In this document: positions 35,146 through 44,713 of the stretch, piece by piece
How the letters are laid out: each line of letters starts with the position of its first letter
How positions within the stretch are numbered: position 1 is the stretch's first letter
From: Mycobacterium noviomagense
GTDB taxonomy: Bacteria > Actinomycetota > Actinomycetes > Mycobacteriales > Mycobacteriaceae
Assembly: GCF_010731635.1 (NCBI RefSeq)
Contig: NZ_AP022583.1
Coordinates: 1,798,001-1,862,000 of the forward strand
Direction of reading: 5' to 3'
Length of the DNA stretch: 64,000 nt
Made by a program: the position numbers and the translations under genes
Notes under the pieces: model-generated
Told to the model about the DNA's origin: nothing
Seen by the model: only the letters and a program-made list of their open reading frames with translations
The model's database searches: none

Positions 35146-36290
35146 ATGGGAATGTCGCAGCTGGTGGTCACGGCCGTACTGGTCGAGGGGCGAAGTAAAA
35201 GTGAGGTTGCGCGCGACTACGGGGTTTCTCGACGGTGGGTGATCACCCTCGTCGAGCGCTACCTCGCCGAGGGCGATGCGGGCCTGCAACCACGCCCACG
35301 CAGGCCGCTTCATAGTCCCAACCGCACCGGCAAAGACATCGAAGACTCGATTGTCGCGTTACGCAAAGAACTGGAACGCGATGGGCATGAGGCCGGCGCG
35401 GCGACGATCGCGTTTCACCTTCAGCAACGCCACGGTGTCAGCCCCGCGGTGTCGACGATCTGGCGGATCCTGTCAGCCCGCGGCTTTGTCACCCCTCAAC
35501 CGCACAAACGCCCCAAAAGCAGCTATATCCGCTTCCAGGCCGAGCAACCCAACGAACGCTGGCAATCCGACATCACCCACTGGCAACTAGCCGACCGCAC
35601 TGACGTTGAGATCCTCAACATCCTCGACGATCACTCCCGGCTATGCGTGGGCAGCGACGCCCGACTGGTGTTCAAGGCCCGCGACATCAACAACAGCTTC
35701 GACCAAGCCGTTGCCGCCTACGGCAATCCGGCCAGCCTGCTTAGCGACAACGGCGCGGTTTTCACCGGCCGCTACCGCGGCACCGGTCGCGTCGCCCTAG
35801 AAGTCACCCTGCATGCCCGCGGCATCAGCTTTCGCCACTGCCGCCCCTACATCCACAGACCTGCGGCAAGATCGAACGCTTCCACCAAACCCTCAAAAAG
35901 TGGCTCGCCCATCAGCCCCGAGCCACAACCCTCACCGAACTACAAACCCAGCTCGACACCTTCCGCGCCTACTACAACACCGTGCGCCCACACCGCGCAC
36001 TAGGACGCCGCACCCCGCAGCAGGCTCACGCGACCCAAAGCAACTCCGACCGGCAGCCCACTGCACGCCGGCAACTACCGCATTCGCCACGACCGCATCG
36101 ACAGCAACGGCAAGCTCACCATGCGCCACAACAGCCGCCTACACCACATAGGAGCCGCAGACACGCCGGCACTAACGTCTTGGTCCCAATTCACGACCGA
36201 CACATCCGGGTCGCGACCACCGACGGAAAACTACTGCGCGAGCTTCACCTCGACCCGACCAAGGACTACCAACCACAACCAAAACCGTGA
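35146..36290 (+). pseudogene. IS481-family DDE transposase, frameshifted
   Basis: Starts at the ATG 35146 with a helix-turn-helix (SKSEVARDYGVSRRWVITLV). The DDE core follows: first Asp in QSDITHWQL, later LLSDNGAVF. Near 35852 the frame is lost within HCRPY; the next frame gives HPQTCGKIERFHQTLKKWLA with the catalytic Glu. Around 36040 it returns to the first frame (GSPLHAGNYRIRHDR), and near 36155 it shifts again (RRHAGTNVLV). At least three single-base deletions make it inactive, unless they are sequencing errors. Length would be about 380 residues if intact. Confidence 0.8.
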
Positions 36291-36322
36291 ACGATGTCCC
36301 AAGACACATGTGCACGATGTCC
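36287..36322 (-). repeat. Right inverted repeat of the IS481-family element
   Basis: GTGAACGATGTCCCAAGACA is followed by a second GCACGATGTCCCGAGACA unit, the mirror of the left end's double arrangement. Confidence 0.65.
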
Positions 36323-36347
36323 CGAGACATCGCAACTGTGGAGCCTA

Positions 36348-36392
36348 GTGGAGCCTAGGGGATTCGAACCCCTGACTTCTGCTTTGCAAAGG
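36348..36392 (-). repeat. att-like duplicate of the tRNA-Ala 3' half
   Basis: 44 of 45 bases match 39556-39600 (single change at 36383). It covers the acceptor 3' strand, the T-arm and the anticodon-loop side, then diverges. It cannot fold as a full tRNA, so it is the displaced 3' end. Confidence 0.85.
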
Positions 36393-36558
36393 GGAACCTG
36401 GACCGTGGATCACGGACGTATCTGCGATCTGACCTGCGGGACACAGCAGAGTACTTCACAGCAGTGATGATCTGTAACTGTGGGCAGATTGTGGTCACCA
36501 TGTGGCCACTTTCACGCCGTGGAACCTAGTTGCGTCTGGCGCCGCACCGGGCGCCGTA

Positions 36559-37416
36559 TCACATTAAGGTGAGCTGTCTGGAATCGTCCCCATCGATACC
36601 ATCGATAGCCGCCTCGAGATGATTCCGGCTACGAATGACCTTGGCGCCGTTGTCTATCAAAAGCTTATTGCCGGCAGGGGCATCGAAAAGCTGGAGGGTC
36701 CACACGGTCTGACCGCGCTGTAGAGCGTATTCACCCGCGGCCAGTGTTCCACCGGTCTCACCTGCTTCTACGACCACGAGCGCTTGGCTCAAGCCGGAGA
36801 TCACGGTGTTGCGAACCATTGCACCGGAAGCGAACCATTTCTGATCGGGGGCGAACTGGGAAACCACCGCTACTCTTTGTGGGTCCCAGAGCTTTTGAAA
36901 CTCACCTCGCCGGATGCGGAATCGGTTGATGCCTTCGGGGAGCACGATGACAGTCGTGCCTCCGCTCGCGAGCGCTGCTGAATGAGCCGCCGAATCGACG
37001 CCCTTTGCGTATCCAGATACCACGGTGTATCCGCGACGAGACACCGCGTCTGCGCATGCATGTGCCGCGCGTAAACCTTCGGAACTCGCATGCCGTGAAC
37101 CGCACATGCCAATCGCGGGCTGTTCAAGCAATTCAAGTGGGCCTTTGACAAAAAGGGCGGCGGGCGCCTGCGGCGATAACGCGAGACGCTTTGGATAGCC
37201 GTCCTGGCCAAGAAGGACGGCATCGATTCCACTGTCCGTTAGCTCGGCGGCTTGATCCTCGACTCGCTGACGGTCTTCAGTCCCAAGCGCTTCGGTGACA
37301 TCTTCGAACGCTTGCATGCGAATTGCCCGCACCCGTGAGGCGATTGTCCGTTGCCCACCGCCGAATCTGGTCGCGGCTATCGCATACCGCAGCCGTGCCA
37401 GAGCATCGGTACCCAT
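36559..37416 (-). CDS. DprA/SLOG-family protein on the tRNA-Ala island
   Basis: 285 residues from the ATG at 37414-37416, chosen because a strong GGAGGTGA lies 5 bases upstream. It carries the DprA Rossmann (SLOG) fold: DGYPKRL and PAALFVKGPLELL, the nucleotide loop CGSRHAS, VVSGYAKGVDSAAHSAAL, TVIVLPEGI, then MVRNTVISGLSQALVVVEAG, TGGTLAAGEYAL and GNKLLIDNGAKVI. It lacks the C-terminal winged helix of competence DprA. Housekeeping DprA loads RecA on single-stranded DNA; this island copy is more likely part of an accessory system with the divergent phosphoribosyltransferase. Function inferred. Confidence 0.85.
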   Translation of the reverse strand: MGTDALARLRYAIAATRFGGGQRTIASRVRAIRMQAFEDVTEALGTEDRQRVEDQAAELTDSGIDAVLLGQDGYPKRLALSPQAPAALFVKGPLELLEQPAIGMCGSRHASSEGLRAAHACADAVSRRGYTVVSGYAKGVDSAAHSAALASGGTTVIVLPEGINRFRIRRGEFQKLWDPQRVAVVSQFAPDQKWFASGAMVRNTVISGLSQALVVVEAGETGGTLAAGEYALQRGQTVWTLQLFDAPAGNKLLIDNGAKVIRSRNHLEAAIDGIDGDDSRQLTLM

Positions 37417-37547
37417 CGCCTCACCTCCAGACATCCGCAATCTATAGAACGTTTGTTCGAATGCTGCCACGGGCCGGCGTGTCACATGCCCCATTTGTCG
37501 GAATTACCAGGGACGATATAGCACGAAAATACGTCCGAGCAGGGTAG

Positions 37548-38369
37548 ATGGTAATAAGAGATTTGTCCCAAAGCGGCCCCAGCAACCGGGGCGGCTCCTA
37601 CGTCACTGATTACAGCCACCAGCGGATGCCATCCGGCGGACACAGGTTGACAGTGACGGGTCCAGAAGACGCCATCAAACAAGTCATGCTGACGGATCAC
37701 AGCTACACGCGAAGTGGTGTTTTCATTAATGTTCACCATCTGGACGGTGCGGGCCCCGCTCCGACGGCTGGGACGTCTGCTCTCCTGGAGTTGCTGCGCG
37801 GTGCCGTGATTGTCCCTTGCGGAGATTCGGTCGACTTCGCCATAGCACTGGATTGGTACAACAAGATCGTTGACGACAAACTTGGTCCACATACGGATCT
37901 CGCTGATCTCGTACACCGTGCCAAGTATTGGTATCGGGCCGATCCCGAGAGGCAGCGGGTGCTCGGTCTAGCGATCGCCGAGGAGATAACCGAGTTCGTC
38001 GCGCATCACCCTCTCCTGAAGGACGTCGACGCGATTGCATCCGTACCAGGGCACGATGCAAAGGTGGCGAGCTTTGGCGCCCGTCTTGCTGCAACAGTTG
38101 CCCGTGACCGCGGCGGTGTCCCGATTGTGCGCTGCGAGTCGCTACAGGCATTCCGCGCGCCGGCCAAGACCATTCCGCCGGCGGATCGCGCAGCGGCACT
38201 TGAGGGCCAATTTCGTTGTCCCGTGGACATTTCAGGACAGCACGTGCTGATCGTCGATGACGTGTACACCAGCGGGGCAACGGCTGAGGAAACCGCGCGG
38301 GCGCTTCGCGCGGCTGGCGCGACAGCCGTAGCATGCCTGGCGGCCGTCCGAACAATGAAGTCGGGCTAG
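37548..38369 (+). CDS. ComF-like phosphoribosyltransferase on the tRNA-Ala island
   Basis: 273 residues. The C-terminal ~130 residues are a type I PRTase: the PRPP loop is VLIVDDVYTSGATAEETARA, preceded by DAIASVPGHDAKVASFG and a flexible loop region. The N-terminal 140 residues match no family I know (HRLTVTGPEDAIKQ; VHRAKYWYRADPERQ). It is divergent from the DprA-like gene (131 bp between starts) and its TAG stop is shared with the convergent small gene through CTAG at 38366-38369. The start ATG at 37548 has a weak ribosome site; ATG 37626 is an alternative. Substrate unknown. Confidence 0.82.
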   Translation: MVIRDLSQSGPSNRGGSYVTDYSHQRMPSGGHRLTVTGPEDAIKQVMLTDHSYTRSGVFINVHHLDGAGPAPTAGTSALLELLRGAVIVPCGDSVDFAIALDWYNKIVDDKLGPHTDLADLVHRAKYWYRADPERQRVLGLAIAEEITEFVAHHPLLKDVDAIASVPGHDAKVASFGARLAATVARDRGGVPIVRCESLQAFRAPAKTIPPADRAAALEGQFRCPVDISGQHVLIVDDVYTSGATAEETARALRAAGATAVACLAAVRTMKSG

Positions 38370-38683
38370 AACGCCCAGTCGTCGTCTTCCGGACGGGGCA
38401 CACCTGGAACACGCGCCTGGTCTAACATTTTTGCGGCACCGTCAGCCGCGATCCTGACGAGCGCCGAATCTGCATCGAGGCGCTCCGCAGATAGCTCTTG
38501 TGTGACACGGGCGAGTTCAAGTAGGTCCGTATCGGACCATGCGCGACCGAGTTCTGACAGCCGAGCTGCCGCCGCCGCCAGGGTCTCTTGCCAATCGGTC
38601 ACGACGACCTCGTTGACGAGGAAGGACTCGAGCACGTCACGGATGTCGACGATCGGCTCGAACAACAGGGCGGGTTCGCGCAT
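38366..38683 (-). CDS. Unknown 105-residue protein on the tRNA-Ala island
   Basis: Starts at the ATG 38681-38683 with AGGAA upstream (MREPALLFEPIVDIRDVLES). Helical and acidic: WQETLAAAAARLSELGRAWS then LLELARVTQELSAERLDADS, ending EDDDWAF. No membrane helix or known domain. It converges on the phosphoribosyltransferase, sharing the stop palindrome. Possibly a regulator or partner of the DprA/PRTase pair; not recognised. Confidence 0.6.
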   Translation of the reverse strand: MREPALLFEPIVDIRDVLESFLVNEVVVTDWQETLAAAAARLSELGRAWSDTDLLELARVTQELSAERLDADSALVRIAADGAAKMLDQARVPGVPRPEDDDWAF

Positions 38684-38772
38684 ACTCTGTTCCTAATGAA
38701 TATTTTTAGTGAGTATCTGGATGATATTGCCTAAATACAAAGCAGCGACTTAGGCGCGCCGAGCGAGGTGAT
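38684..38772. promoter_or_regulatory. AT-rich divergent intergenic region in the island
   Basis: 89 bp between two divergent starts. The segment around 38694-38745 (AATGAATATTTTTAGTGAG and following) is far more AT-rich than the rest of the window, consistent with promoters for both small genes and with foreign origin. Confidence 0.5.
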
Positions 38773-39105
38773 ATGTCGGATAAGCAGGGCGTACTGATCG
38801 ACGCGAACGCGCTTGCCTCGAGAACCGTTACCAAACCGGCTGCGTTCAGCTGGCCCTTCCCGGCCGACCGACGCCTCGACCAACTAGTCGAGATCGCAAA
38901 CGGCGCGGGTGCAAATGCCCGACGGAACGAACTAGCGGCCGCCATAATTGCAGCGGCGCCGACAGATCCAGACGAGCTGCTTCAGATGGTCATAGCCTGG
39001 CGTAAGTCTCGCGTCCGCGAGGTCGTGCTTGGGGTCGACGCTGCGGCGCAGGTTGTCGATATGCCCCGACACCCGCCTGGCCGACGGCGCGTTGATGCGG
39101 GCTAG
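38773..39105 (+). CDS. Unknown 110-residue protein on the tRNA-Ala island
   Basis: ATG at 38773 four bases after GAGGTG. Product MSDKQGVLIDANALASRTVT, then ANGAGANARRNELAAAIIAA and LLQMVIAWRKSRVREVV, helical with a basic, proline-rich end. Not recognised. The same frame continues after its TAG with coding-like text (RVDLFASFHAWLDVM), so the gene may be a truncated form of a longer one. Confidence 0.55.
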   Translation: MSDKQGVLIDANALASRTVTKPAAFSWPFPADRRLDQLVEIANGAGANARRNELAAAIIAAAPTDPDELLQMVIAWRKSRVREVVLGVDAAAQVVDMPRHPPGRRRVDAG

Positions 39106-39475
39106 CCGCGGGAAGCGCCGAACAGGTATGGGCGCGCCGCGGTTCCGCGGCATAGCGTCAGCCCGCAGCGCGTCGACCTCTTCGCTTCTTTCCATGCCTG
39201 GTTGGACGTGATGCGACTGCCAAGGGTTCCAAATGGTGCCGAGCTGAGGGGCTCAACCCCGACGACCCCGCCGTCATCATGGCGATAGACCTTGTCCGAT
39301 GGGAACTTCGCTCATCTCGAATAACCGCGCGGACACAGAGTTGACCGCGCTTCGATTTATCGGAACTTGACCGCGACGGCGATAGCGTGGCCTGCGAATA
39401 ATGTGTCATGCCCTTTAGGACGACGGAGTGCCTTGCGCAGAGTTGGTTCGACAACATAGTTGGCGCAACGAATAG
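39106..39475. other. Decayed coding-like sequence at the island end
   Basis: No intact gene. One plus-strand frame reads RVDLFASFHAWLDVM near 39157-39215. The next frame then reads ATAKGSKWCRAEGLNPDDPA and IMAIDLVRWELRSSRITART up to a TGA near 39330. The two pieces look like one frameshifted small protein. Beyond that nothing is recognised. Confidence 0.4.
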
Positions 39476-39499
39476 AAAAACCCCGGCCGATGGCCGGGG
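39476..39499 (-). terminator. Intrinsic terminator after the tRNA-Ile/tRNA-Ala unit
   Basis: Minus strand: an 8-bp stem CCCCGGCC with loop ATC pairs with GGCCGGGG, followed by TTTTT (plus-strand AAAAA at 39476-39480). It lies 58 bp beyond the tRNA-Ala 3' end and should stop its transcript before the island. It lies on the island side of the att duplication. Confidence 0.85.
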
Positions 39500-39504
39500 A
39501 ATCT

Positions 39505-39548
39505 GTAACCAATGACGCGACTCATGTGTAACCCATGACTCGACTCAT
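39505..39548 (-). repeat. Tandem 21-bp repeat, possible solo insertion-sequence end
   Basis: GTAACCAATGACGCGACTCAT and GTAACCCATGACTCGACTCAT (two mismatches, 23-bp period). Doubled terminal motifs of this kind also form the ends of the IS481-type element at 35088. The unit stops about 10 bp before the tRNA-Ala, whose CCTAGG contains the IS481 target CTAG. Confidence 0.45.
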
Positions 39549-39556
39549 CACAATTG

Positions 39557-39629
39557 TGGAGCCTAGGGGATTCGAACCCCTGACTTCTGCCTTGCAAAGG
39601 CAGCGCTCTACCAACTGAGCTAAGGCCCC
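39557..39629 (-). tRNA. alaT: tRNA-Ala (TGC anticodon)
   Basis: 73 nt on the minus strand. Acceptor stem GGGGCCT with AGGCTCC (one G-U), discriminator A at 39557. D-arm AGCTCAGTTGGTAGAGC. Anticodon stem CTGCC/GGCAG with loop TTTGCAA, anticodon TGC. T-arm CAGGGGTTCGAATCCCCT. Its 3' half is duplicated at 36348, so it is an integration target. Transcribed after tRNA-Ile, 139 bp upstream. Confidence 0.97.
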
Positions 39630-39768
39630 GGGTGGTGACCCGTGGTGTGGTCAGCGGCCACATGCCATACCTCGACGCGGCGTCGGGATCGCATCACCCC
39701 CGCCACCACCGTGATCGCGGCGAGCAGCACCGCAAGTCGTACGGCGCGTCGGGATGAACACATGGTGG

Positions 39769-40954: not shown

Positions 40955-44713
<3,759 letters not shown>

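Follow-up and report, generated by a model that had tools for sequence, protein, structure and literature searches.

What does the 3.2-kb island beside a tRNA-Ala gene of Mycobacterium noviomagense encode? The island lies in a 64,000-nucleotide stretch of contig NZ_AP022583.1 (assembly GCF_010731635.1, positions 1,798,001 to 1,862,000 of the forward strand), called the window below and numbered from its first letter. It holds a gene for a DprA-like protein of the SLOG fold, a divergent phosphoribosyltransferase (PRTase) gene and two small genes, here termed S105 and S110. A first-pass annotation had proposed an uncharacterised conflict system in which a nucleotide signal is made and sensed. 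The conflict-type character stands, but the kind is already known: the toxin-antitoxin systems ShosTA, PsyrTA and RqlHI consist of DprA-like/PRTase pairs, one of which blocks T7 and lambda (PMC9122126, PMC4670107). We consider it fairly probable that the island encodes an SOS-gated variant of this kind, probably anti-phage, on an integrative element. Its features are as follows (aa, amino acids).

36348..36392, minus strand: att-type repeat, far copy of the 3' 45 bp of tRNA-Ala (44/45 identical to 39556-39600)
36559..37416, minus strand: DprA-like SLOG protein, 285 aa, without winged helix, putative antitoxin/sensor (Pfam DNA_processg_A, E 1.6e-46; PADLOC PsyrA 163.5 bits, ShosA 144.7)
36562-36576, minus strand: C-terminal tip QLTLM of the DprA-like protein
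37445..37460, no strand: LexA/SOS-like box TAGAACGTTTGTTCGA, within the 131 bp separating the DprA-like and PRTase genes and one mismatch away from TCGAACN4GTTCGA
37548..38369, plus strand: putative toxin/effector, a 273-aa PRTase of ComF/ShosT-like fold whose N-terminal domain is different (Pfam Pribosyltran, E 5e-7, covering residues 227-268 only)
38366..38683, minus strand: S105, 105-aa accessory protein (34 homologues; no Pfam family; C-terminal half fused to PRTase in relatives)
38369-38389, minus strand: C-terminal tip EDDDWAF of S105
38684..38772, no strand: AT-rich gap between the divergent genes S105 and S110, in which the blocks CCTAA, CCTAAATACA and CGCGCC are conserved (GC 0.427; five-genome alignment)
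38773..39105, plus strand: S110, small protein of 110 aa and possibly a DNA-binding regulator, by sequence pattern only (137 homologues; conserved in genomes G047, G063, G221 and G1036)
39556..39629, minus strand: intact tRNA-Ala(TGC), where the element integrates (ARAGORN and Rfam)

The DprA-like/PRTase pair and its relatives

The open reading frame (ORF) called for the DprA-like gene spans 36559-37494 (minus strand); because its relatives align from ATG 37416, the protein was taken to be 285 aa long. The canonical DprA of the same genome, a separate gene at G000:C1:3369748 (G000 denotes the genome under study) with 31% identity, runs ~75 residues past the end of the DprA-like protein in the alignment, which bears out the missing winged-helix end reported in the first-pass annotation. 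PsyrA was the best model for all five DprA-like proteins scanned (134-165 bits), with the canonical DprA control scoring best for ShosA, and the ThsA model reached only E 0.019. The PRTase has a ShosT-type fold with an intact phosphoribosyl pyrophosphate (PRPP) loop, and the loop is conserved, as the earlier reading required.

The pair is not an ordinary dprA/comF copy: canonical DprA is encoded separately, the NCBIfam dprA score of the DprA-like protein (137.8) and the comF score of the PRTase (30.9) fall below the cut-offs of 191.15 and 233.55, and the distribution is sporadic. With six first-look candidates scored per genome, strong PRTase relatives were found in 6 of 396 genomes of the genus (E 1e-20) and 6 of 397 of the order (E 1e-15), the present one included each time, and in this genome alone among 394 of the class. 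These are thus not competence genes conserved in all mycobacteria; the module proteins differ from canonical DprA and ComF in lacking the winged helix, in their low scores and in being sporadic and mobile.

All four genes, in the same order and orientation, are kept in five mycobacterial genomes by tblastn, namely the present one, G047, G063, G221 and G1036. Identities of the DprA-like protein, PRTase, S105 and S110 were 71/79/73/69% in G047, 68/58/59/65% in G063 and 74/70/64/68% in G1036. Two genes are broken in G221: its PRTase is divided over different frames, and transposase-like genes interrupt its DprA-like gene. Among intact copies, 7 of 32 gene pairs were saturated at synonymous sites; in the remaining 25 the ratio of nonsynonymous to synonymous substitution rates was 0.08-0.26. 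This indicates that S105 and S110 are real genes and, together with the recurrence of the four genes in four other genomes, that their association is beyond chance. The two small genes, entered as unknown by the first-pass annotation, do constitute two added protein families without a Pfam match, and they are conserved members of the module.

Pairing of the two larger genes extends further, in keeping with the first-pass annotation. Pseudonocardia acaciae (L033) has a DprA-like protein (47% identity), PRTase (38%) and S105 (37%), and genomes G009 and G437 carry a PRTase/DprA-like pair with both genes on one strand. The G009 pair (L122 1792-8392) lies near tRNA-His and adjoins a beta-CASP metallo-hydrolase and a DrmE_C (DISARM) protein. 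DprA-like matches occurred in 116 plasmid and 28 phage records, and among the five plasmid records and one phage record inspected a PRTase/ComF gene was adjacent in three and one, respectively; the remaining two plasmid records had a chromosome-type dprA neighbourhood and no annotation, respectively. The three plasmids are from Streptomyces (L184, L185, L188), with same-strand DprA-like/ComF-type pairs, and the phage is the temperate Gordonia phage Vasanti (L187 2799-4529), in which the annotated DprA-like/phosphoribosyltransferase pair lies close to the integrase. These pairs share the adjacency seen here, but they form same-strand operons and their DprA-like proteins fall in another tree branch; S105 and S110 are not annotated beside them, in stretches that were not searched for either. 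At E 1e-5 no relatives of the PRTase or S110 were found on plasmids or phages, and viral contigs gave no relatives of the PRTase, S110 or the DprA-like protein. A scan of genome contigs for the PRPP-loop pattern returned 80 loci, mostly of generic-looking PRTases, 5 of which (L033-L036, L082) were examined further. No DprA-like match was found in four further loci (L124-L127), where the relative is a PRTase alone and belongs to another family.

Compared with the known systems, the module is closest to PsyrTA/RqlHI in its DprA-like protein, and the match of the PRTase to PsyrT is confined to the C-terminal part (residues 563-686 of a 689-position model); no match to PsyrT spanning both helicase and PRTase parts was found in this genome. 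In contrast to those systems, the genes are divergent here, whereas rqlH always lies upstream of rqlI (PMC4670107), and the module has two extra genes and a LexA-like box. From ShosTA it differs in the region ahead of the shared part (~165 residues in ShosT, ~83 here); only residues 84-272 of the PRTase model align to ShosT (166-365), the N-terminal domain not having been searched alone. Furthermore, the ShosA score of the DprA-like protein is below its PsyrA score, and S105, S110 and the divergent order are additional. New features are the divergent layout of four genes, the SOS-like box, the S105 tail fused to PRTase in relatives and the C-terminal tips. Listings from searches of an open-access library showed no paper that deals with the four-gene form, with S105 or S110, or with DprA-PRTase pairs under LexA control.

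The LexA-like box and the accessory proteins

The first-pass annotation had noted an AT-rich promoter region; this is borne out for the S105/S110 gap (GC 0.427 versus 0.653 window-wide, with 0.05% of 90-bp windows as low), but the LexA-like box in the other gap had gone unnoticed. It is the single site in the window within one mismatch of TCGAACN4GTTCGA, where 0.13 were expected from shuffles. A box lies ~21-44 bp upstream of the DprA-like start in 7 of 12 DprA/PRTase loci, at distances (script values, exact to about a base) of 29 bp in G000, 44 in G047, 42 in G063 (a perfect box), 42 in G1036, 29 in P. acaciae, 28 in Vasanti and 21 in G221, where the broken gene's first aligned residue served as the start. 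As the five mycobacterial loci are related, this amounts to about three independent lineages. The 293,908 bp included in the count contain 11 sites of this kind, and the upstream boxes make up 7 of them. Three perfect boxes occur in the genome under study, one presumably beside a 13E12-like gene and one beside what we take to be a radical-SAM-like gene. At the level of sequence, an SOS-like box lies in the promoter region of the DprA-like gene, which makes the gene a candidate member of the LexA (SOS) regulon. The trigger of DprA-PRTase systems is little understood, and a box shared by mycobacteria, Pseudonocardia and a Gordonia phage makes it directly testable.

Longer PRTases carry a C-terminal extension homologous to the final 51 residues of S105 (55%, E 8e-17; 53%, E 8e-15; E-values from single comparisons), and such fusions point toward a new partner protein. 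The tip is a recurrent feature: an acidic run followed by a terminal [WL]xF is present in 29 of the 34 S105 homologues (30 have F as the last residue; the five without the pattern are cut or shifted), an ending DW[TA][FLV] is found in 42 among the 120 PRTases listed, and the linker preceding the tip varies from ~5 to 50 residues. The DprA-like protein ends in QLTLM or QLSLM in all five module copies, in QLTLT in G437 and in QLALAGL in the three Streptomyces plasmids; no QL-type ending was seen in the DprA-like proteins of P. acaciae, G009 or Vasanti. Among the 417 window ORFs of at least 60 aa, the two end patterns are matched solely by S105 and the DprA-like protein. The main single-stranded DNA-binding protein (SSB) of this genome ends in GGGDDEPPF, and its second SSB is without such a tail. 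Beta-clamp motifs take the form QL[SD]LF. The DprA-like tip resembles the example QLPLWG of M. tuberculosis ImuB (PMC10421592), and the S105 tip resembles the SSB tail DDDIPF (PMC4137731). The two tips may be replisome-docking peptides, of clamp-binding type and SSB-tail-like, respectively, and they define precise mutants.

S110 carries the pattern DRRLDQLVELAN..GA..RRNELAAAI, which may recall ribbon-helix-helix or helix-turn-helix regulators. Its structure model was weak (predicted local distance difference test score 69) with no PDB match at E 1e-3; no Pfam family was assigned, all Pfam matches of family members (set A2) being at E 0.017 or worse. A relative with 33% identity in G155 had no DprA-like or S105 neighbour within the 16 kb examined.

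The tRNA-Ala site and its probable integrative element

The duplication of the tRNA-Ala 3' end that had been taken to bound the island was confirmed, with 44 of 45 positions identical (98%) and a start-to-start spacing of 3208 bp. No integrase trace was found in the window (best tblastn match E 1.9, with a relative's integrase as query), as first described. Repeats of 45-47 bp together with tRNA-Ala also bound the module in G047 (5.9 kb), G221 (5.7 kb) and G1036 (~15.1 kb). In G1036 an intact tyrosine integrase adjoins the tRNA-Ala and the module sits at the end by the far att repeat; in G047 pieces of integrase remain. The G1036 element also contains, adjoining the module, a RhuM-family gene (L135 6916-8166; PF13310, E 1.1e-108). 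Since both-end tRNA repeats are present here and the intact integrase of G1036 stands at the same tRNA, the module was probably delivered by a tRNA-Ala-specific integrative element, and the view of the divergent pair as conflict-type cargo at a tRNA hot spot holds.

Other genomes use the same site differently. G004 (L168 2345-12650, 10.2 kb) has DUF3800 cargo at the far end and an integrase 87.5% identical to that of G1036, and G012 (L169 2548-5758, 3.1 kb) has Fic cargo at the far end and an integrase fragment. G006 and G014 are empty sites, with ~0.26 kb from the tRNA to the next conserved gene and no repeat. With its exchangeable cargo (module, Fic, DUF3800), the tRNA-Ala site is a possible hunting ground for mycobacterial defence genes. 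No tRNA was found within the 17 kb seen around the G063 module, whose neighbours, as judged by eye, include sigma-factor and thioredoxin-type genes.

Candidate mechanism and competing explanations

The gene set, the PRPP loop, the SLOG domain, the box, the S105-tail fusion and the element, as read from sequence, point to the SOS-gated toxin-antitoxin variant. In such a system the PRTase would be the toxin, disturbing nucleotides or DNA like ShosT and the RqlH PRTase domain, and the DprA-like protein would bind it and hold it off while monitoring DNA or fork structures. S105 would bind or tether the PRTase where the latter has no tail of its own, and S110 would regulate the AT-rich S105/S110 promoter. 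LexA would keep the DprA/PRTase promoter low until DNA damage or phage replication lifts it and module expression rises; disturbed DNA would then cause the DprA-like protein to release the PRTase, and the infected cell would stop. As to genomic context, the G009 pair has DISARM-type neighbours, and pairs are carried on phage and plasmids. One elaboration, which we regard as unlikely, is that the module is a replication-fork-docked, SOS-gated guard of the replisome and not a sensor of one phage protein. Here the DprA-like protein would be anchored by the clamp-type QL[TS]LM, and S105, or the PRTase in relatives, by the SSB-like DDDW[AT]F; a phage displacing host clamp or SSB, or triggering SOS, would separate toxin from antitoxin and free the PRTase.

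Several observations weigh against an SOS-gated toxin-antitoxin module. The isolated RqlH PRTase domain is non-toxic alone (PMC4670107), the PsyrTA/RqlHI toxins have a fused RecQ-like helicase that is absent from the 273-aa PRTase, and PGHD is absent from the distant G009 PRTase. The ShosTA trigger reported in a review is T7 Gp0.7, not SOS (PMC12593503). As for the box, the window's own copy carries a mismatch, although the M. tuberculosis lexA and recA boxes likewise have one (PMC8607333, Table 1). The box is missing in G437 and the three Streptomyces plasmids among the 12 loci examined, and the near site of G009 falls inside the PRTase ORF. With 861 bp between the two P. acaciae genes, the box there belongs to the DprA-like promoter only and not to a shared promoter. 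The background count omitted L124-L127 (68 kb), which add 12 clustered one-mismatch sites. They occur as three clustered boxes in each locus (L124 566-661, L125 13032-13127, L126 13125-13220, L127 15427-15522), 4-7 kb from the PRTase relative and none near a DprA-like gene.

The same toxin-antitoxin chemistry might instead serve to retain the element, with the SOS box timed to excision and not to phage attack. The toxin-antitoxin parentage of the module, its place on an integrative element with a tyrosine integrase in G1036 and its position there by the far att repeat all fit such addiction, but the module outlives the integrase (no trace in the window, only pieces in G047, no tRNA in the 17 kb seen around the G063 copy), elements at the same site carry different cargo (Fic, DUF3800), and the G009 pair adjoins DISARM-type genes; we judge this explanation distinctly improbable. 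We give still less credence to an SOS-induced repair or recombination cassette, in which the DprA-like protein would load recombinase on single-stranded DNA and the PRTase would act in base salvage, with neither toxin nor defence. Sporadic, mobile distribution and a best match to PsyrA, not canonical DprA, argue against it, as does the precedent for PRTase toxicity (PMC4670107), even though the LexA-like box, the tips resembling clamp and SSB peptides and the handling of single-stranded DNA by DprA relatives (PMC9122126) would suit it.

The first-pass proposal of Thoeris-like signalling, in which the PRTase makes a nucleotide signal and the SLOG domain senses it, appears least probable of all, and very improbable in itself. 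ThsA SLOG domains do sense cyclic ADP-ribose isomers (PMC11204291), but the SLOG domain here is of DprA/PsyrA type, as the poor ThsA score indicates, and the 285-aa DprA-like protein has no fused effector domain. The signal idea found no support here; in the known precedent, a DprA-like partner holds a PRTase toxin in check.

Promoter and terminator predictions for positions 36300-39660 gave no sigma-70-type promoter (1.3 expected) and three terminators (2.1 expected), the latter not used as evidence. Between an Rv0008c-like gene and the far tRNA repeat lies an IS481-like transposase gene (35146-36003, plus strand; rve and HTH domains), the reading frame of which is disrupted near its end. A gyrA-like ORF of 1252 aa (40955-44713, minus strand) may contain an intein, as judged by eye.

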